A stretch of DNA of 64,000 bases from Oceanospirillum linum. GTDB taxonomy: Bacteria; Pseudomonadota; Gammaproteobacteria; Pseudomonadales; Halomonadaceae. Within the stretch, counting starts at the first letter, position 1. Every line of letters starts with the position of its first letter. The translations under genes were made by a program, and so were the position numbers. The notes beneath the pieces are model-generated. The model did no database searches, was not told the DNA's origin, and saw nothing but the letters and a program-made list of their open reading frames with translations. Below, one piece after another: positions 42,566 through 51,292 of the stretch. The stretch is taken from NCBI RefSeq assembly GCF_001995095.2, contig NZ_MTSD02000006.1:124001-188000 (forward strand). Direction: 5' to 3'.

Positions 42566-43099
42566 TTACTTGCTGTTATTGTAGGCTTCGATAGATTTAA
42601 CAATCTCAGCACGAGCTTCGGCAGCATTGCCCCAGCCTTCAACTTTAACCCACTTACCTTCTTCCAGATCTTTATAGTTTTCAAAGAAGTGGGAGATCTG
42701 CTCACGTAGCAGGGCTGGAATGTCTTCAACATCCTGAATTTCTTTGTAAACTGTGGTCAGCTTGTCATGAGGTACGGCGATTAGTTTCGCATCAGGCCCT
42801 GCCTCATCAGACATATTCAGTACGCCAACCGGGCGGCAGCGAACGACGGAACCAGGCAGAACTGGGTAAGGTGTAATTACCAGAACATCCAGTGCATCAC
42901 CATCTTCAGACAGGGTGTGAGGGATGAAGCCGTAGTTCGCAGGGTAGAACATTGGGGTTGCCATGAAACGGTCAACCATGATCGCATTGTAGTCTTTCTC
43001 GATCTCATACTTGATCGGTGAGCTTTGCGCGGGAATCTCAATTGCTACATAGATATCGTTTGGTGCGTCTTTACCGGCAGGAATTTTTTCAAAATCCAT
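42566..43099 (-). CDS. ppa: Inorganic pyrophosphatase Ppa
   Basis: The 177-residue family I pyrophosphatase starts at [13 protein letters not shown] (ATG 43099). The metal and substrate residues appear in [19 protein letters not shown], and DGDALDVLV. It hydrolyses PPi and pulls biosynthetic reactions forward. Its presence alongside a PPi-type phosphofructokinase 5 kb away implies competing PPi users. Confidence 0.97.
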
Positions 43100-43461
43100 T
43101 ATTCTGACCCCAGAAATAGAAAACGTTGAATGGAAATTCAGGGAAGATCCCCTCATTAAAAGCTGGCAGGATTATATAGTCACTCACCTTTGATTGCCAT
43201 TATCACACCATAGATTCCTACTAAAGAACACACTGGCAGGCTGTCTTTATAGCTGTTGAAGGGGATGTGTTCTTTGTGAGGGAAGGTTCCCCCTGTTACA
43301 GTTTTTATACTCACAGTGGGATAGCTGTTACGACAAACACTATTGCATAATATTTGCATATCATCCGATCAGTTAAACTGCAGTATTCAGACCGGCGTCT
43401 GAATACGCTAGTGCAGTGCAAAAAATATGCAGTTCACCGGAAAACGATCTGAGTTGGTGCA
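43100..43461. other. Divergent ppa / PP2C-kinase intergenic region
   Basis: These 362 bases carry no gene. They hold two copies of TTGCATA (43343-43349 and 43354-43360), one helical turn (11 bases) apart, and a perfect 10-bp dyad at 43383-43406. Promoters for both divergent genes must lie here. Confidence 0.6.
43383..43406. promoter_or_regulatory. Perfect dyad upstream of PP2C-kinase gene
   Basis: Arms GTATTCAGAC and GTCTGAATAC are separated by CGGC, 56 bases before the ATG. No T-run follows, so it is more like an operator or a 5' UTR hairpin than a terminator. Confidence 0.65.
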
Positions 43462-45186
43462 ATGACCCGAGATAGTCAATTAAAAATCAGTTATGGCCAG
43501 GCCTTTATTGCGCCGGACAGAAACTCAATACGATCGACAATGTCGGTCAGAATCCCTGAAGGCTCTGGTCTGGCCGTAAAAGGTGTGTCTGCCGTTGTGG
43601 CGGATTCTACCTGGCGTAATGTTATTGCCAAGCAAGCGGCAGAAACCTGTGTACGGGGATTTTTGGCAGATTACTATGCTACGCCGGATAACTGGGATGT
43701 GAAAACGTCGGCGACTAAAGTGTTGAGTGCCCTTAATGGCTGGCTGTTCAGTCAGGGAAAGAATGTTACTAATGGCAACTATATCAGTTCATTCAGCAGT
43801 GTCGTTTTAAAAGGGCGTCATGGTCACCTTTTTCATATGGGAGATACACTGGTTTATCGTTTACGGGGTGGTGAGTTTGAGCAGCTGAATCGCGAGCACA
43901 CCAACTTTATTGGTGGTTATCGTTACCCGTCCCGGGCCCTTGGCCTGGACCCCAGTGTTGATATTGATTATCACCAGTTTTCCTTAAAGCAGGGCGATAT
44001 CCTGCTGTTTACCACTCAGGCCAGTAAAGGCACTCTGGTGGCATCTGATTATGTTCAACAGATTCGCCATAATGCTTCAGATCTGAATGAGGCCTGTGAT
44101 CAGCTGTTGAATGTTGCGATGGAAAAAGCCAGTGCCCGCGGTTATAGCAGCACTCATTTTTGTTTTCAGTTGGTACGTATCGATATGCTTCCTGAAGAGT
44201 CTGGTGACACGATAGGAGAGGCATTTGGTGCTTTGCCGGTGCCCAGAGAGCTGAATATTGGTGACGATCTGGACGGTTACCGTGTGATGGAAGTGCTTAA
44301 TAAAAGCAATATGAGCTGTATCTACCGGGTAGAAGACAAGCATACCGGCCGGGAGATGGTGCTTAAGGCACCGTCACCTCAACTGGAAAGTCGGAAAGAC
44401 TTTTTACGCCAGTTTATTATGCAGCAGTGGGTGGTTGAACGGGTAAACTCGCCTTATGTGGCTAAAATTGTCGATGCTTCCCGCCCCAGAAACTATCTTT
44501 ATTATCTGCGGGAGTTTGTTGATGGCCGTACTTTGACCGAGTGGATGCTTCAGAATCCCCATGCAGAATTGCGTCGCCTGATTGATCTTATTGAGCAAAT
44601 GGTAAAAGCAGTTCGGGCGTTACACCGGCGGGATATTCTCTGCCAGGGGCTACATCCGGATAATATTCTGGTGGATCAGCGAGGCATGATCAAGCTGATC
44701 GATTTTGCATCATGTGCTGTTCCGGGGACAGATGATTTGCCTTCGCCATTATCCATCGTGCGTATGGTCGGCCTGACCCCCTTTAGTGCGCCGGAGTATC
44801 GCCTGAATCGTGAGCCAGGGCCTAATGCAGATCAGTTTTCGTTGGCCGTCATTGCCTACTGGATGCTAACCGGGCAGCAACCTTATGCGGACCAGATGGA
44901 GCACTTTCATAGTCGGGTGGATTTTTCTCGACTTGAATATCTGCCAAGCTATCAGTTTAATCCGATGGTGCCGGTATGGCTGGATGGAACTTTGCGTCGG
45001 GCTCTGCAGCCAAACCCGGAACTTCGTTACCGCCGCCTGTCTGAATTTATCTATGACCTGAAAAAACCTAATCCACATTACATGAAAGAGGGGGCAATGC
45101 CATTAGTGGAGCGTAATCCTCTGATGTTCTGGAAAGGGTTATCGGGTATCCTGCTACTTTTATTAATAGGCAGTATGGTGACTTAA
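43462..45186 (+). CDS. PP2C phosphatase-like / Ser-Thr kinase-like fusion, both active sites degenerate
   Basis: The 574-residue fusion has an N-terminal PP2C-like domain (about 7-242), a kinase-like domain (about 271-535), and a C-terminal transmembrane helix (about 556-572). The PP2C part keeps HMGDT (125-129) but reads ADS (47-49) where ADG is expected and TTQASKG (184-190) where TTDG is expected, so metal-binding Asp residues are missing. The kinase part keeps Lys302, Asn401, Asp414 (DFA for DFG) and APE (443-445), but the HRD motif is CQG (394-396), losing the catalytic Asp, and the glycine loop is NKSNMSC. Family members are usually active bifunctional enzymes; this copy looks like a pseudoenzyme scaffold. 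It is monocistronic and terminated. Confidence 0.88.
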   Translation: MTRDSQLKISYGQAFIAPDRNSIRSTMSVRIPEGSGLAVKGVSAVVADSTWRNVIAKQAAETCVRGFLADYYATPDNWDVKTSATKVLSALNGWLFSQGKNVTNGNYISSFSSVVLKGRHGHLFHMGDTLVYRLRGGEFEQLNREHTNFIGGYRYPSRALGLDPSVDIDYHQFSLKQGDILLFTTQASKGTLVASDYVQQIRHNASDLNEACDQLLNVAMEKASARGYSSTHFCFQLVRIDMLPEESGDTIGEAFGALPVPRELNIGDDLDGYRVMEVLNKSNMSCIYRVEDKHTGREMVLKAPSPQLESRKDFLRQFIMQQWVVERVNSPYVAKIVDASRPRNYLYYLREFVDGRTLTEWMLQNPHAELRRLIDLIEQMVKAVRALHRRDILCQGLHPDNILVDQRGMIKLIDFASCAVPGTDDLPSPLSIVRMVGLTPFSAPEYRLNREPGPNADQFSLAVIAYWMLTGQQPYADQMEHFHSRVDFSRLEYLPSYQFNPMVPVWLDGTLRRALQPNPELRYRRLSEFIYDLKKPNPHYMKEGAMPLVERNPLMFWKGLSGILLLLLIGSMVT

Positions 45187-45240
45187 TCGATCTGCCCAGC
45201 AGATGATTTTACAGTTAAAATACCTGTGAAAGCAGATATT

Positions 45241-45268
45241 AAAAGGAGTCGGCCCTGACTCCTTTTTT
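45241..45268 (+). terminator. Terminator after PP2C-kinase gene
   Basis: The stem AAAAGGAGTC / GACTCCTTTT with a 6-base loop is followed by more T. It lies 55 bases after the stop and 38 bases before the next gene. Confidence 0.92.
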
Positions 45269-45306
45269 ATTGCACCGCATGAAACAGAAAAGGCCGGTCA
45301 GATACT

Positions 45307-45711
45307 ATGGTTGAGAAAGAGATACCTGCTGTAAAGAAGCAAGTCGCCACATCACAAGATCCTTTGCATGGGGTAAAGCTTGAGCAGATTCTGAACGAGT
45401 TGGTTGCAGAATATGGTTGGCCGGGTTTGCATCAGAGGATTGCAGTGAACTGCTTTAAATCAGAGCCAAGTATCAGATCCAGTCTGAAGTTTTTGCGTAA
45501 AACGCCTTGGGCGCGCCAGAAGGTAGAGAGCCTGTATTTGAAAATGAAGGGTTTTTCTACTGATAAAAGAGCAACGAAAACAGAGGCGCAGCTGGTAGCA
45601 GAGGTGAAAAAGTCGCTCGATAAAAACAAAGCTCAGTCTTCAGATGTTGCTTTGAAATCGAAAGACCCCTGGCTTAAAGCAAAAGGCACACTTGGTCTGA
45701 GAAAAGACTAG
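45307..45711 (+). CDS. VF530 family (DUF2132) protein
   Basis: The 134-residue protein has the VF530 core DPLHGVKLEQILNELVAEYGW (about 18-38) through FLRKTPWARQKVESLYL. Small VF530 proteins are about 75 residues; this one has a ~20-residue N-terminal and a ~55-residue Lys-rich C-terminal extension. The family is described as DNA-binding from structure, without a defined role. The basic tail would favour nucleic acid contact. Confidence 0.87.
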   Translation: MVEKEIPAVKKQVATSQDPLHGVKLEQILNELVAEYGWPGLHQRIAVNCFKSEPSIRSSLKFLRKTPWARQKVESLYLKMKGFSTDKRATKTEAQLVAEVKKSLDKNKAQSSDVALKSKDPWLKAKGTLGLRKD

Positions 45712-45960
45712 TATACTTGTCCAATATACCTGACGTCCCAGCTGTTTTCTTATACTGGGTGCAGCTTCGGCCGTGACAACAATGGATAGTATTGCAGATA
45801 TCGGCGCGCTTTATGCCGCCATACTGAGACCTAGCAGGTCACAACAGAGATTTAAGAGAGGAAAAAAGGCATCCTGCCCTGCCATTTATCCATTATGGCG
45901 ATTCCATATAAGCTTTCCCAGCATCTTTATAATGGCCAAACCCTTAGATGTAATTTAACC

Positions 45961-45975
45961 CCTGTCTGTGACAGG
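45961..45975 (-). terminator. Short hairpin after MFS gene
   Basis: CCTGTC / GACAGG with a 3-base loop lies about 20-30 bases beyond the MFS stop. It has no clear T-run on the minus strand, so this is a weak call. The rest of the 282-base gap from 45712 holds nothing else recognisable. Confidence 0.35.
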
Positions 45976-45993
45976 CAGATGACACCATACATA

Positions 45994-47223
45994 TCAGGCG
46001 GCTTTAAACTCTGCAGCAGCAAAACGCTTAGGTGTCAGAGGGAGATGCACAAGGGCAGCCAGTAAGCCAAGGCCAGCACTTAAGCTCAATGCAATACTGT
46101 AATCACCGTACCATTCAAACAGAAGGCCACCCCACCAGCTGCCAAAAAAAGCACCTACCTGATGGCTGAACATGACAATTCCAAATAGTGATGCCAGATT
46201 TTTCGTGCCAAAAAGGTGCGCAACGCAGCCGCTGGTCAGGGGGACGGTGGACAACCATAGCATTCCCATAACAACAGAGAAGGCATAAAACACTTCATAG
46301 GTGGGCGGGAGTATGATCAGCATAATGATCAGCAGGGTTCTCAAACCATAGATCAGGGTGAGCAGATAAGGCTTGTGCCAGCGATCCCCTGCCCAGCCGA
46401 CGGTGACGGCACCAATCACATTGATCAGCCCGATTAAGGCGATCGAGTTGGATGCCACACTGGATGGCAGACCACAGAAGTTTACAAACCCTGCCATATG
46501 CACGGTGATAAAGGCAACGTGGAAACCGCAGACAAAGAAGCCGATATTCAACAGCTGATATTCCGGCACCTGTATCGCTTTGCCAATGGCCTGCCAGTCA
46601 AAAAGTCGGGTTGGTGAGGAGATCTGAGCTGAGCGGCGTTCTTCCCTGAGTTGCTTGCTCTCGGCTAGCAACCAGGCTAGGGCAAAAACGATCAGCGTCG
46701 AGCCTGCAAACCACATAAAGGTATCGGACCAGCCGATTACAGGGCTAATTTTTCCCAGAATAAAGGCGTAGCCGAACTGACCTAATGAACCGCCAGCACT
46801 GGCGATGCCAAGGGCCAGGGTACGCTTATTCGCAGGAAATTTTTGCCCGACAGCAGCAAGAACAATGGGGAAGGTGGTCGCACCGACACCGATACCGACC
46901 AATAGGGCGTTACCGATAAAGAAAAGCATGTTGTCCTGTGCGATGGCGGCTAACACCATGCCCAGTCCATAGAGCAGTGCGCCCACAAGTAGAATACGCA
47001 CCGTGCCAAAGCGCTCTGCCAGAAGGCCGGCTACGGGAGAAACGGCACCCCAAAGTAAATTTTGTACGGCAAAACCAAAAGCCAGGTCAGACTGACTGAT
47101 ACCGAGGTCGCTGTTGATGTTTGGAATAAGCAGGCCAGTGGATAGGCGAACGCCCATGTTGTAAGCCAGAATAATGCCGGCGGCGAGAACAACCCACCAG
47201 GGGTTAATGCGTGCGGTGTTCAT
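45994..47223 (-). CDS. Major facilitator superfamily transporter
   Basis: The 409-residue protein has 12 predicted transmembrane segments and the MFS loop motif GLLAERFGTVRILLVG between helices 2 and 3. It resembles the oxalate/formate or monocarboxylate antiporter-like group, but I cannot name a substrate. The gene is flanked by its own gaps, and no regulator or enzyme neighbour hints at a role. Confidence 0.87.
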   Translation of the reverse strand: MNTARINPWWVVLAAGIILAYNMGVRLSTGLLIPNINSDLGISQSDLAFGFAVQNLLWGAVSPVAGLLAERFGTVRILLVGALLYGLGMVLAAIAQDNMLFFIGNALLVGIGVGATTFPIVLAAVGQKFPANKRTLALGIASAGGSLGQFGYAFILGKISPVIGWSDTFMWFAGSTLIVFALAWLLAESKQLREERRSAQISSPTRLFDWQAIGKAIQVPEYQLLNIGFFVCGFHVAFITVHMAGFVNFCGLPSSVASNSIALIGLINVIGAVTVGWAGDRWHKPYLLTLIYGLRTLLIIMLIILPPTYEVFYAFSVVMGMLWLSTVPLTSGCVAHLFGTKNLASLFGIVMFSHQVGAFFGSWWGGLLFEWYGDYSIALSLSAGLGLLAALVHLPLTPKRFAAAEFKAA

Positions 47224-47330
47224 ATTTTAGTCCCTATTCAGCAATGCCCCCTTAGATGAGGATCGAATATATTCCTGCAAAAAAGTTATTAAGGGAAATG
47301 AGTTTTGTGAATAGGTGTGATTCTGCAAAA

Positions 47331-47362
47331 TAAAAAAGCCCCGATATGCGTTTATCGGGGCT
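47331..47362 (-). terminator. Terminator after phosphofructokinase gene
   Basis: A 10-bp stem AGCCCCGATA / TATCGGGGCT is followed on the minus strand by TTTTTATTTT, 40 bases beyond the stop. Confidence 0.93.
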
Positions 47363-47399
47363 CTTATTTCAGTGCTAAAGCGTGTTATCGATTATGATA

Positions 47400-48665
47400 T
47401 TACGCTTTAAATTCCGGCAGCTTTTTCTCTGCCAGCTGATGACTCAGGCGAACATAAGTTGGCAGACCGGTTTTTTCGTCGTATGGCAGCTCGGCTTCGC
47501 CACGGATCAGAGGTTCCAGATACTCACGGCAGGCTTCGGTGATACCAAAACCATCTTCGGTGATAAAGTCCCGTGGCATAAACTTCTCAACATTGGCCAC
47601 TTTATCCAGAGGGGCTTCTTCAATAACCCACTCAAACGGCGCGTTGCTCTTACGGATAATCGCCGGCATAACGGCATTTTTACCCGCAACCGCCATCTCG
47701 ACAGCAGCCTGACCTACGGCATAGGCCTGCTCGACGTCAGTTCTGGAGGAGATGTGACGAGCAGCACGCTGCAGGTAGTCGGCAACCGCCCAATGGTATT
47801 TGTAGCCCAGGTCTTCACGGACCATGTTCGCCAGTGTTGGTGCCACGCCGCCGAGCTGAGTGTGGCCGAAAGCATCTTTAGTGCCAGCGTCCGCAATGAA
47901 GGTGCCGTCTTCGTAGTGCGCGCCTTCTGAAACAACGATGACACAGTAGCCGTTGTCTTTCACGCTTTGATCAACCTTCTTCATAAAGGCTACACGGTCA
48001 AAAGCGATCTCAGGGAAGATAATGATATGTGGCGGCTGGCCTTCTGCTTGCTGTGCCAAACCACCGGCTGCAGCAATCCAGCCGGCATGGCGACCCATCA
48101 CTTCAAGGATAAACACCTTGGTGGAGGTTTCGCACATAGACTGGATATCCAGGCCCGCTTCCATAGTGGAGAGTGCGATATATTTGGCCACAGAACCAAA
48201 ACCCGGGCAGGTGTCGGTGATCGGCAGATCGTTGTCAACGGTTTTAGGCACATGGATCGCTTTGATCGGGTAGCCTAATTTCTCGGAGATTTGCGATACT
48301 TTCAGGCATGTATCTGCTGAGTCGTTACCGCCGTTATAAAAGAAGTAGCCGATATCGTGGGCTTTAAATACTTCGATAAGACGCTCGTACTGCTCGCGGT
48401 GCGTCTCCATGTCTTTCAGTTTGTAGCGGCAAGAACCGAATGCGCCACCAGGGGTGTGACGTAGTGCAGCAACGTCCTGCTCAGAGATAGCATTGGTATC
48501 GATCAGCTCTTCAACCAAGGCGCCGATGATGCCGTTTTGACCGGCATAAACAGTACCAATTTTGTCGCTGTGTTTACGTGCAGTTTCGATGACACCACAG
48601 GCACTGGCATTAATAACAGAAGTAACACCACCTGACTGGGCATAAAACGCGTTTTGCTTGCTCAT
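47400..48665 (-). CDS. pfp: Pyrophosphate-dependent 6-phosphofructokinase
   Basis: The protein has 421 residues from the ATG at 48665 (MSKQNAFYAQSGG), with AGGAG upstream. The active site reads GGND (112-115) and KTVDNDLPITD (141-151). The Lys before TVDND and the lack of GGDGS point to PPi rather than ATP as phosphoryl donor. The reaction is reversible between fructose-6-phosphate and fructose-1,6-bisphosphate. The donor is inferred from motifs and would need an assay. Confidence 0.9.
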   Translation of the reverse strand: MSKQNAFYAQSGGVTSVINASACGVIETARKHSDKIGTVYAGQNGIIGALVEELIDTNAISEQDVAALRHTPGGAFGSCRYKLKDMETHREQYERLIEVFKAHDIGYFFYNGGNDSADTCLKVSQISEKLGYPIKAIHVPKTVDNDLPITDTCPGFGSVAKYIALSTMEAGLDIQSMCETSTKVFILEVMGRHAGWIAAAGGLAQQAEGQPPHIIIFPEIAFDRVAFMKKVDQSVKDNGYCVIVVSEGAHYEDGTFIADAGTKDAFGHTQLGGVAPTLANMVREDLGYKYHWAVADYLQRAARHISSRTDVEQAYAVGQAAVEMAVAGKNAVMPAIIRKSNAPFEWVIEEAPLDKVANVEKFMPRDFITEDGFGITEACREYLEPLIRGEAELPYDEKTGLPTYVRLSHQLAEKKLPEFKA

Positions 48666-48996
48666 CTCTGAACTGGCTCCTGAGAGTCGTTGAGGTCTTA
48701 AAATAGTAGCCATACGGGAGAGGATCAGATCCTGAGTCCGTCGAATTTGGCCCCGAAAAATGTCGGCAATACTACTTGAATTTGGCCTCTTTTGCATGGC
48801 TGTGGGCAAGTTTTTTCATGCTTTGCAGATATAGGCTTTGTAAGCGCCTGTTTTAATGTTGGTATTCTGAAATCATCACTATTTAGTTGCAGGCTAATTC
48901 TGTTGGGCAAGGCGTCTTCTCATGCTAATCTTCTGTGAATTTTTCCGGCGCGTGCCAGAGGTCTCAGGCACGACCTAAATGGTTTAGGGAGTTTTT
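48666..48996. other. Divergent pfp / mpl intergenic region
   Basis: These 331 bases hold no gene. Near pfp there is a 13-base palindrome AGGATCAGATCCT (48721-48733), and a 10-base direct repeat GAATTTGGCC occurs at 48743-48752 and 48778-48787. Promoters of both genes must lie here, but I cannot place them with confidence. Confidence 0.55.
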
Positions 48997-50385
48997 ATGC
49001 ATCTGCATATTCTGGGTATCTGCGGAACCTTTATGGGCAGTCTGGCGATTTTGGCCCGGGAGCTGGGTTATAACGTGACGGGCTCTGATGCGAATGTCTA
49101 TCCGCCCATGAGTACCCAGCTGGAAGAGCAGGGCATCGAAATCACTCAGGGCTTTTCTCCTGAGCAATTGGAGCCAGTGCCGGATCTGGTGATTGTCGGT
49201 AATGCCATGAGCCGTGGCAATCCGGCGGTGGAAGCTGTGTTGAATAAAGGGATCCCCTACACCTCTGGTCCTCAGTGGTTGTCTGAGCACGTACTGAAAG
49301 ACAGGTGGGTGATGGCGGTTTCCGGCACTCATGGTAAAACCACCACGACCAGTATGCTGGCGCAGATTTTGGATTACGCCAAAATGGCACCGGGCTTTCT
49401 GGTGGGTGGGGTGCCGGAAAATTTCGGTATTTCCGCGCGCTTGGGTGAGACACCTTTTTTTGTGATTGAAGCGGATGAGTATGACTCAGCTTTTTTTGAT
49501 AAACGCTCCAAGTTTGTTCACTACCGCCCGCGAACCTTGATTATGAATAATCTTGAGTTTGATCACGCCGATATCTTCCCGGATCTGGCAGCGATTCAGC
49601 GTCAGTTTCACCATCTGGTGCGGACTGTACCCTCTGAAGGCCTGATTGTTTCTGCAGATTGTCAGTCTTTGAACGGTGTTTTGGAGCAGGGATGCTGGAC
49701 GCCGACGCAGATGATCAAAGCACATTCCGGCAAAGAGGGCTGGTCTACCCGTATGCTGCGTGAAGATGGCAGTCGCTTTAAGGTTTTGTTGGATGGTGAA
49801 AAAGTGGCGGAAGTGAATTGGTCGCTTTCCGGGCAACATAATGTTGCCAATGCTGTCGCTGCCATTGCTGCCGCCCGCCATGTGGGGGTGACACCTGAGA
49901 TTGCCGCACAGGCACTGGCAGAGTTCCGTAATGTGAAGCGACGTATGGAGCTGCGTGGCGAAGTGGATGGCGTTAAGGTTTATGACGACTTTGCCCATCA
50001 TCCCACGGCTATCAATACCACCCTCGAAGGGGCAAAAGCTCAGCTGGCGCTTGATCCGCATCTGCAGGAAGGGGAAGGCCGGATTCTGGCGGTGATTGAG
50101 CCCCGATCTAATACGATGCGTCTGGGAACACTGCAGTCCCAGTTGATCGATTGTACTCAATATGCCGATGAGGCCTTCTGGTATCAGCCTCCTGGTCTGG
50201 ACTGGAATCTGGGGGCTGTGGTGGCCAATGCACCGGTTCCTTCTGAGTTGGTAGGTGATTTGGAACACCTGATTGTTCGGCTGGTCGAAGCCAGTCGCCC
50301 CGGGGATCGTATCGTCGTGATGAGCAATGGTGGCTTTGGCGGTATTCATCAGAAATTGTTGGATGCTTTAGCGGTCAAGTCCTGA
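48997..50385 (+). CDS. mpl: Murein tripeptide ligase Mpl
   Basis: This 462-residue Mur-ligase family enzyme has the ATP loop SGTHGKTTTTSML (about 109-121), the central motif EADEYDSAFFDKRSKF, and the C-terminal domain with YDDFAHHPTAI. Mpl attaches recycled L-Ala-D-Glu-mDAP tripeptide to UDP-MurNAc, bypassing MurC, MurD and MurE. GGGAG precedes the ATG. Confidence 0.96.
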   Translation: MHLHILGICGTFMGSLAILARELGYNVTGSDANVYPPMSTQLEEQGIEITQGFSPEQLEPVPDLVIVGNAMSRGNPAVEAVLNKGIPYTSGPQWLSEHVLKDRWVMAVSGTHGKTTTTSMLAQILDYAKMAPGFLVGGVPENFGISARLGETPFFVIEADEYDSAFFDKRSKFVHYRPRTLIMNNLEFDHADIFPDLAAIQRQFHHLVRTVPSEGLIVSADCQSLNGVLEQGCWTPTQMIKAHSGKEGWSTRMLREDGSRFKVLLDGEKVAEVNWSLSGQHNVANAVAAIAAARHVGVTPEIAAQALAEFRNVKRRMELRGEVDGVKVYDDFAHHPTAINTTLEGAKAQLALDPHLQEGEGRILAVIEPRSNTMRLGTLQSQLIDCTQYADEAFWYQPPGLDWNLGAVVANAPVPSELVGDLEHLIVRLVEASRPGDRIVVMSNGGFGGIHQKLLDALAVKS

Positions 50386-50629
50386 GTGCGTGAAATATAC
50401 TTACACCCGCAAAAGTGGTTTTGACTAAGGTTTAGTATCCTCGGATGCTCTGGGTCACGATGATGACCGTAAGAGGGTTGTCGTGCACTCGGGGTTACTG
50501 TTGATGTTAAGCTTGTCTTCCCGCTTTGCCGGATATAACGACAGTTATAGTCTTGCGGTAATCGTAGCCCCGTTTATTTTGGCAGTCCCTGCTACTGTTT
50601 ACTTTGTTTTTTCTATTTAAGAGTCCTAT

Positions 50630-51292
50630 ATGAGTCATACCGAACAGCCTTCTACTGATTCATCCGAGTGTTCCTCGGCAGCTTTGAGCGGCGATAAGCG
50701 CGTGACGGTTGCTCTGACCGGTGCTTCCGGTGCTCAGTACGGAATCCGCCTGATCGAGTGCCTGATCGCATTGGGTTGTGAGGTTTCTGTGATGGTCTCC
50801 AAAGCCGCTCAGGTCGTGATTACGACTGAGACGGAAGAGCGTTTTCCTTCTGGCAGCGATAAGCTGCAGGCCTATCTGGTGACACGCTTTAAGGCAGAGC
50901 CCTGGCAGATTAAAGTGTATGGCCGGGAGAACTGGATGGCACCGGTAGCGTCAGGTTCCGGCGCGCCTCACAAGATGGTGGTTTGCCCTTGCTCCACCGG
51001 TACTTTGTCAGCAATAGCCACCGCTGCCAGTAATAACCTGATTGAGCGTGCAGCCGATGTGGCCCTTAAAGAGCGCCGTCAGCTGATTCTGGTTCACAGG
51101 GAAGCGCCCTATCATGAGGTTCATCTACAGCATATGCTGACGCTGACCCGCATGGGGGCTCTGGTGATGCCAGCCAGCCCCGGTTTTTACCACAACCCGC
51201 AGCGCATTGAGGATATGGTGGACTTTATTGTCGCCCGTATTCTTGATCAGCTGGGTTTTGAGCAGACGCTGATGCCCAGGTGGGGCGAGTAG
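50630..51292 (+). CDS. ubiX: Flavin prenyltransferase UbiX
   Basis: The 220-residue protein has a ~22-residue polar Ser/Glu-rich extension before the conserved TVALTGASGAQYGIRLIECL. Other family marks are CPCSTGTLSAIATAASNNLIERAADVALKERR (about 124-155) and MPASPGFYHNP. UbiX makes the prenylated FMN cofactor for the UbiD decarboxylase in ubiquinone synthesis. The mpl-ubiX order is common in related bacteria; a 244-base gap separates them. Confidence 0.95.
   Translation: MSHTEQPSTDSSECSSAALSGDKRVTVALTGASGAQYGIRLIECLIALGCEVSVMVSKAAQVVITTETEERFPSGSDKLQAYLVTRFKAEPWQIKVYGRENWMAPVASGSGAPHKMVVCPCSTGTLSAIATAASNNLIERAADVALKERRQLILVHREAPYHEVHLQHMLTLTRMGALVMPASPGFYHNPQRIEDMVDFIVARILDQLGFEQTLMPRWGE

Follow-up and report, generated by a model that had tools for sequence, protein, structure and literature searches.

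A core PP2C-kinase fusion in the family of Oceanospirillum linum, predicted to be a double pseudoenzyme with a non-catalytic role

An open reading frame of Oceanospirillum linum, located at 43462-45186 of the window (the whole stretch of 64,000 nucleotides that was analysed), encodes a fusion of a PP2C-like half and a protein kinase-like half, which have both lost catalytic residues and yet are kept throughout the host's family, suggesting that the protein probably works by binding rather than by chemistry. The preferred reading, given a probability of about 0.72, is that of a core double pseudoenzyme with a non-catalytic job, descended from a nitrate-linked, membrane-anchored PP2C-kinase fusion. 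The pseudoenzyme reading of the sequence is well supported by evolution, and we infer that both phosphatase and protein-kinase activity are absent. A kinase or phosphatase fold is generally taken as a sign of reversible phosphorylation, to which this family would be an exception; annotation would likely describe a bifunctional kinase/phosphatase, and the functional inference would thus be corrected for some 270 sampled genomes.

Domain layout and catalytic residues

The reading frame starts with ATG, has no internal stop and specifies 574 amino acids; by this protein, the closest named relatives are Oceanospirillum sanctuarii (96%) and O. maris (92%). The features of the locus are as follows:

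42566..43156, minus strand: ppa, inorganic pyrophosphatase, the divergent neighbour and marker of the orthologous locus, found in orthologous loci
43462..45186, plus strand: pseudo-PP2C/pseudokinase fusion, tail-anchored, 574 aa, as predicted from the ORF, Pfam, residue counts and profile alignment
43477..44211, plus strand: PP2C-like half, approximately residues 6-250 (residue counts, structure-profile match of the homologue L079, fixed-position counts)
44254..45069, plus strand: kinase-like half, approximately residues 265-536 (Pfam match, residue counts)
45121..45171, plus strand: C-terminal transmembrane helix, residues 554-570 (hydropathy)
47400..48809, minus strand: PPi-dependent phosphofructokinase (PFP), convergent downstream, a positional marker found in 48/72 orthologous loci

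A Pfam search assigned residues 276-487 to PF00069 (Pkinase; E = 1.8e-26), and the PP2C half alone gave a marginal match to PF13672 (PP2C_2; residues 54-148, E = 0.032). The latter domain is matched by the PP2C half of related fusions with intact catalytic residues, and that of L079, the sole intact fusion tried, also matched solved bacterial PP2Cs (2jfr, 5d2u, 1txo and others). The N-terminal half is identified as PP2C because of end-to-end homology with these intact fusions: a profile of the orthologues (27 rows) was aligned by hhalign with a profile of intact fusions (12 rows) over 567 columns, including the whole PP2C domain, at 41% identity and a probability of 100. The initial annotation had described a full-length, membrane-anchored PP2C-kinase fusion, and this description held; the best hydrophobic 17-mer (residues 554-570) has a comparable C-terminal segment in 73/73 orthologues. 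The arrangement of PP2C domain, kinase domain and C-terminal membrane helix is that of the nitrate/nitrite-linked fusions discussed below. AlphaFold2 models were of low confidence, both for the whole protein (mean pLDDT 52.5, pTM 0.42, from a shallow 8-row alignment) and for the kinase half (mean pLDDT 42.0).

Catalytic positions were compared between two sets of homologues. From 118 fetched loci, 109 homologues were aligned (without L002, L112 and L032-L038, each a weak hit or a duplicate), and the 73 family orthologues are those rows of the host's family in which the active sites were read, with one degenerate copy per genome. The intact set consists of 72 near-complete rows, namely the 36 of the first alignment minus L107, L108, L110 and L111, plus 40 homologues added from other families of the order, which came mostly from the top of the match list and represent the nearer part of the diversity, more distant ones lying outside the sample; one more distant listed homologue (G341) has an internal stop. 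The N-terminal region is missing from L107 and L110 and the C-terminal one from L108, and the catalytic positions that these three fragments cover are intact; L111 was kept out because it is degenerate. Motif names are those in general use for PP2C and kinase folds, and column counts were computed.

In the PP2C half, the aspartates that bind metal in PP2C/PPM phosphatases at motifs 1, 8 and 11 are replaced by S25, Q186 and T231. None of the 73 orthologues has Asp at motif 1 (Ser or Ala instead) or at motif 8 (Gln, Arg or Pro in 73/73), and motif 11 is mixed (Asp 23/73, Glu 28/73, other 22/73, with Thr or Ser in Oceanospirillum). At motif 2, Asp48 is kept here and in 72/73 orthologues, and the following Gly has become S49 (Ser, Thr or Ala in orthologues, Gly in 0/73), so that the Asp-Gly pair is absent.

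In the kinase half, the beta-3 Lys (K302; 70/73), the catalytic-loop Asn (N401; 68/73) and the DFG Asp (D414; 71/73) are present and largely kept. The three are retained jointly in 66/73 members and one or more is missing in 7/73, including L052, where all of them are gone (R, T and F). The alpha-C Glu is replaced by Q321, with Gln in 73/73 and Glu in 0/73 versus 72/72 intact homologues. The HRD Asp, required in an active kinase, is G396 here and is likewise absent from all 73 orthologues versus present in 72/72 intact rows; the Lys of HRDxK is H398 in this protein, and DFG has become DFA, as in 13/73 orthologues. The site of the HRD Asp is occupied by eight different residues (Q27, G10, R9, H8, N6, L5, A5 and S3), a drift that would be expected if catalysis there were gone, whereas the alpha-C Gln is invariant. 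Under a definition of pseudokinases as having lost at least one of the beta-3 Lys, HRD Asp and DFG Asp, the whole clade qualifies through the loss of the HRD Asp.

All intact homologues have four of four PP2C aspartates and five of five kinase residues (K, E, D, N, D) in 72/72 rows. Four catalytic positions (the aspartates of PP2C motifs 1 and 8, the alpha-C Glu and the Asp of HRD) therefore separate the two sets completely, 0/73 versus 72/72, which exceeds chance for a monophyletic group, and no intermediates were found among the rows read, L111 aside. The intact fusions (L075-L083, L085-L106, L109, L159-L198) are odd kinases themselves, with HQD and a Gly-free phosphate loop: Gly is absent from the loop region in 70/72, and Gln replaces the Arg of HRD in 68/72. 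Since intact homologues share both features, the glycine-poor loop and the missing HRD Arg are ancestral.

These counts bear unevenly on the initial annotation. The motifs ADS (47-49), TTQA (184-187), CQG (394-396) and DFA (414-416) lie exactly where it had placed them, and its question of whether the substitutions are conserved in orthologues can be answered by the key losses, which are clade-wide at the four positions above. TTQA was correctly read as the loss of a metal aspartate. ADS was not, because the Asp remains and only the Gly is gone, and the glycine-poor loop does not indicate decay. As for CQG, loss of the HRD Asp is general but the motif itself occurs in only 6/73 orthologues, all Oceanospirillum, the others having mostly HQ with Q, R, H, N, L, A, S or G as the third residue. 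Three losses had escaped that annotation (motif-1 Asp, motif-11 Asp and alpha-C Glu). Its pseudoenzyme proposal thus fits the residue losses, their conservation and the purifying selection described below, after removal of ADS and the loop from the evidence; the signalling scaffold or sensor that it envisaged, and the well-folded state, are putative.

Residues newly fixed in the degenerate clade, defined as present in at least 93% of its rows and at most 10% elsewhere, occupy 30 positions, 25 in the PP2C half and 5 in the kinase half (Fisher p = 4e-5). Among them are R24, N53, G152, Y153, R226 and G227, each in 73/73, with R226-G227 falling within a short insertion that precedes motif 11. A basic residue was gained at 14 positions, 8 of them in the PP2C half, and the acids lost include those at positions 25, 186, 190, 321 and 396. 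Together these changes suggest that the former metal site has turned into a basic or protein-binding surface. Acids were gained at 19, 268 and 375, of which only the first, with Asp or Glu in 70/73 degenerate versus 0/72 intact rows, is near a former metal motif. The possibility that other acids replace the lost ones, raised in the initial annotation, is thereby divided: D/E19 and D48 might hold one metal, and no acid was gained near the kinase catalytic loop (73 degenerate versus 72 intact rows). A migrated catalytic acid beside that loop was rejected, the acid gains of the kinase half being at 268 and 375 only.

Descent, retention and selection

In a tree of 107 rows (without the fragments L108 and L110), the 73 degenerate rows fell on one side of a single branch with SH-aLRT support of 99. 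Similarly, a tree of 54 rows chosen from 149 placed 17/17 degenerate rows together (100/100) on a stem of 0.6 changes per column. A homologue of either type was found in 272/275 genomes of the host's family, 254/254 of those of good quality and 24/24 genera (E 1e-20), with the active sites examined in 73 of these 275. Outside the family, the fusion gene is patchy in the order, with a match in 126/281 sampled genomes (1e-60; 12 family genomes subtracted).

The degenerate protein is under strong constraint. Among 23 orthologue pairs, dS was < 1.2 in 13, and the overall omega of these ranged from 0.021 to 0.086, which is similar to or below the values of the three intact-homologue pairs measured (0.070-0.098, two of them with dS > 1.2). 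Both halves are constrained, the highest omega being 0.102 in the kinase half of one pair, and omega was lower in the PP2C half in 9/13 usable pairs. Oceanospirillum pairs were saturated (dS at least 1.7 where it could be computed), and these figures come from other genera. All 73 orthologues have open frames of 570-594 aa with no internal stop.

A lone divergent homologue of family f11 (L111:5974-7500, plus strand, genome G082) is differently degenerate in both halves, with Ser-Ser at motif 2, no TTDG, YRA for HRD and DMS for DFG; a nitrate gene was not found in its fetched flanks. It adjoins the degenerate clade on a very long branch in the 107-row tree. A homologue of this type occurs in 1/2 genomes of the family, the other genome being 75% complete, and no inference is drawn as to a second conserved degenerate lineage.

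Gene neighbourhood and genomic associations

The neighbourhood was examined in 72 orthologous loci from 72/73 genomes (G038 was left out), with flanks of approximately 5-6 kb (1.3 kb downstream in L054), by tblastn at 1e-12 using one query per gene. The ppa gene lies divergently upstream in 71/72 loci and is adjacent in 70/72. Homologues of narK, nirB, nirC, nirD and nasC were found by tblastn in the fetched flanks of 0/72 orthologous loci, in contrast to the other homologues, of which 60/76 loci have at least one such gene within 4 kb; several of the 16 loci without one are on short contigs. Gene names were assigned by matching one representative of each cluster to NCBIfam: NarK, NirB and NirD pass the curated cut-offs, and those called nirC (formate/nitrite transporter family) and nasC (a molybdopterin oxidoreductase nearest NasC and FdhF) are below them.

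In four intact loci (L075, L076, L077 and L079), ppa, nirD, nirB and the fusion occur together, a layout that is taken as ancestral. In L077, PFP, mpl and ubiX also lie downstream, and in the window an old block at 42566-51292 reads ppa, fusion, PFP, mpl and ubiX, with two pyrophosphate enzymes close by. A link to pyrophosphate metabolism through ppa and PFP was considered and is weakened, because the same ppa-PFP-mpl order is present in L142, L145 and L154 (3/20 loci), from members of the order where the fusion was not found; what surrounds the gene therefore reflects its descent rather than a role in pyrophosphate metabolism.

The fusion can become separated from the nitrate genes without losing the residues, as indicated by four intact copies of family f17 whose fetched flanks lack nitrate genes (in L083 and L186 the neighbours are ppa and DUF2333, in L161 and L162 DUF2333 alone). 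This family appears to show a state halfway between the nitrate-linked fusions and the degenerate ones.

Two further observations concern Oceanospirillum. A gene for a VF530-family DNA-binding protein (45307-45711) lies directly 3' of the fusion on the same strand; it was found in this locus and in five named Oceanospirillum loci (L032-L036) and not in the other 66 orthologous loci. At L104 (G004:C1:413481-414197), one Oceanospirillum genome carries an intact, nirC-linked fusion, with a separate frame of 338 aa upstream of the fusion and nirC that matches the PP2C half only.

At the genome level, NirB occurs in 54/73 family genomes and gave no match at 1e-100 in 19/73, and the degenerate protein is present in 73/73, so nitrate assimilation is not its shared role. 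A single PF00069 match (1e-10) was obtained in 21/81 family genomes, and this match is the degenerate gene itself in the 20 identified; regulation of a canonical kinase is therefore unlikely as a shared role. PF13672 had no match at 1e-5 in 60/81 family genomes. Both counts refer to these two domains at these cut-offs, below which, or in other families, kinases and phosphatases might escape. The host genome has NirB and two further PF00069 matches, and an intact copy of the fusion was not found in it.

Interpretation and comparison with known systems

The history proposed here begins with a membrane-anchored PP2C-kinase fusion that would have been located amid genes of nitrate/nitrite transport and reduction in the old ppa-PFP-mpl block. 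In the common ancestor of the family, the nitrate genes may have moved out of this block, with the fusion staying beside ppa; residues needed for either standard activity would then have disappeared from the fusion, which would have become established as a core gene that serves a new, non-catalytic function. The product is pictured as a tail-anchored binding protein at the inner face of the membrane. Its remodelled PP2C half, with 25/30 of the newly fixed residues, may bind an anionic ligand or a phosphorylated partner without hydrolysis, at a site where Ser and Gln with neighbouring Arg have replaced the metal-site acids. With K, N and D in 66/73, most members may have kept nucleotide binding in the kinase half but would be unable to transfer phosphate, and a conformational switch might be driven by whether nucleotide is bound. 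The seven members that miss one or more of these residues indicate that nucleotide binding would be dispensable in some lineages.

A more specific version, put forward only tentatively, is a non-enzymatic core sensor of a phosphorylated ligand, in which a dead PP2C receptor with a basic pocket and a dead nucleotide-binding kinase switch would share one membrane anchor, often in cells with no detectable canonical kinase; a nucleotide, a phosphoprotein or a pyrophosphate-type metabolite would be the candidate ligands, with the same reservation.

Other explanations have to be weighed against a binding role. That the gene is merely decaying on its way out might be suggested by the lost catalytic residues and the drifting HRD site, but it is scarcely credible in view of omega values of 0.021-0.086 in 13 pairs, open frames of 570-594 aa in 73/73 orthologues and a homologue in 254/254 good genomes; selection, frames and retention together argue that this is not a decaying gene. 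Eukaryotic pseudokinases commonly act as allosteric partners of active enzymes, and a partnership of this kind with an active Hanks kinase or PP2C of the cell would be favoured by the two additional PF00069 matches of the host genome; as a role common to the family it appears very unlikely, however, when 21/81 genomes have a single PF00069 match at 1e-10 and 60/81 have no PF13672 match at 1e-5.

The remaining alternatives retain some chemistry. The protein could be a residual or partner-dependent phosphatase, weak rather than dead, if D/E19 (70/73), D48 (72/73) and an acid at motif 11 (51/73) rebuilt one metal site, and the pseudophosphatase PHLPP2 is described as still binding one zinc ion (PMC12002173, in the part consulted). 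The same source reports no detectable activity in vitro for the one-zinc PHLPP2, and motif 8 is Q, R or P and motif 1 is S or A in 73/73, with Thr at motif 11 of the present protein, which leaves this explanation quite improbable. It is also conceivable that the kinase half uses its Lys, Asn and Asp for another ATP-dependent transfer, as in the AMPylation by SelO: SelO and SidJ are given as pseudokinases with new chemistry (PMC12599244, in part), and changed catalysis would fit the joint retention of K302, N401 and D414, as well as the invariant Gln321. Seven members nevertheless keep the gene without at least one of K, N and D, and both the majority of newly fixed residues and the lower omega (9/13 pairs) are found in the PP2C half, so an altered enzyme is considered unlikely. 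A core double pseudoenzyme that acts by binding remains the preferred reading. The case would provide a natural experiment in the conversion of a signalling enzyme into a core binding protein, for which the intact relatives, the ancestral gene order and the family f17 state are all available, and it offers a deletable core gene for study.

The nearest known relatives are the nitrate/nitrite-linked PP2C-kinase fusions of the same order (e.g., L079, L085 and L105), which have the same length, domain order and C-terminal helix and share 41% profile identity. They differ in that their catalytic residues are intact in 72/72, whereas the degenerate type has lost residues in both halves, and in having a nitrate/nitrite gene within 4 kb in 60/76 loci versus 0/72. 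In the titles and abstract openings of the open-licence PubMed Central literature, no paper on point was found for a nitrate-linked fusion or a bacterial double pseudoenzyme. We know of no PP2C domain in EssB/YukC and of no kinase domain in PHLPP2, the two membrane-associated or scaffolding cases considered below.

A 2025 review of bacterial pseudokinases distinguishes seven families, ActPs1-3, GLW, CP1, DYD and DLHK (PMC12599244), which have a Hanks fold with lost motifs like the kinase half described here, as compared by eye on the published motif patterns only. In the part of the review consulted, DYD members also lack the alpha-C Glu and are membrane-associated, like the degenerate protein, and a CP1 member in its Table 1 resembles it in retaining the Lys, lacking HRD and having DFS, although CP1 has no membrane region and carries a COG3899 domain, and DLHK differs in keeping the HRD Asp (PMC12599244). 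A term search of the same text for PP2C, Halomona and Oceanospirill returned nothing, and no PP2C fusion is described in that part (PMC12599244). EssB/YukC is likewise presented there as a membrane-anchored bacterial pseudokinase with a non-catalytic role, but it is part of type VII secretion, and the likeness considered here is one of description (PMC12599244).

For the PP2C half, PHLPP2, a PP2C-family pseudophosphatase of animals, may be regarded as a close parallel, since its activity is reported to have disappeared in the ancestor of a large clade and a membrane scaffolding role has been proposed for it (PMC12002173, in the part consulted). PHLPP2 differs in being eukaryotic and in that its inactivity was measured, whereas that of the bacterial protein is deduced from its residues (PMC12002173).
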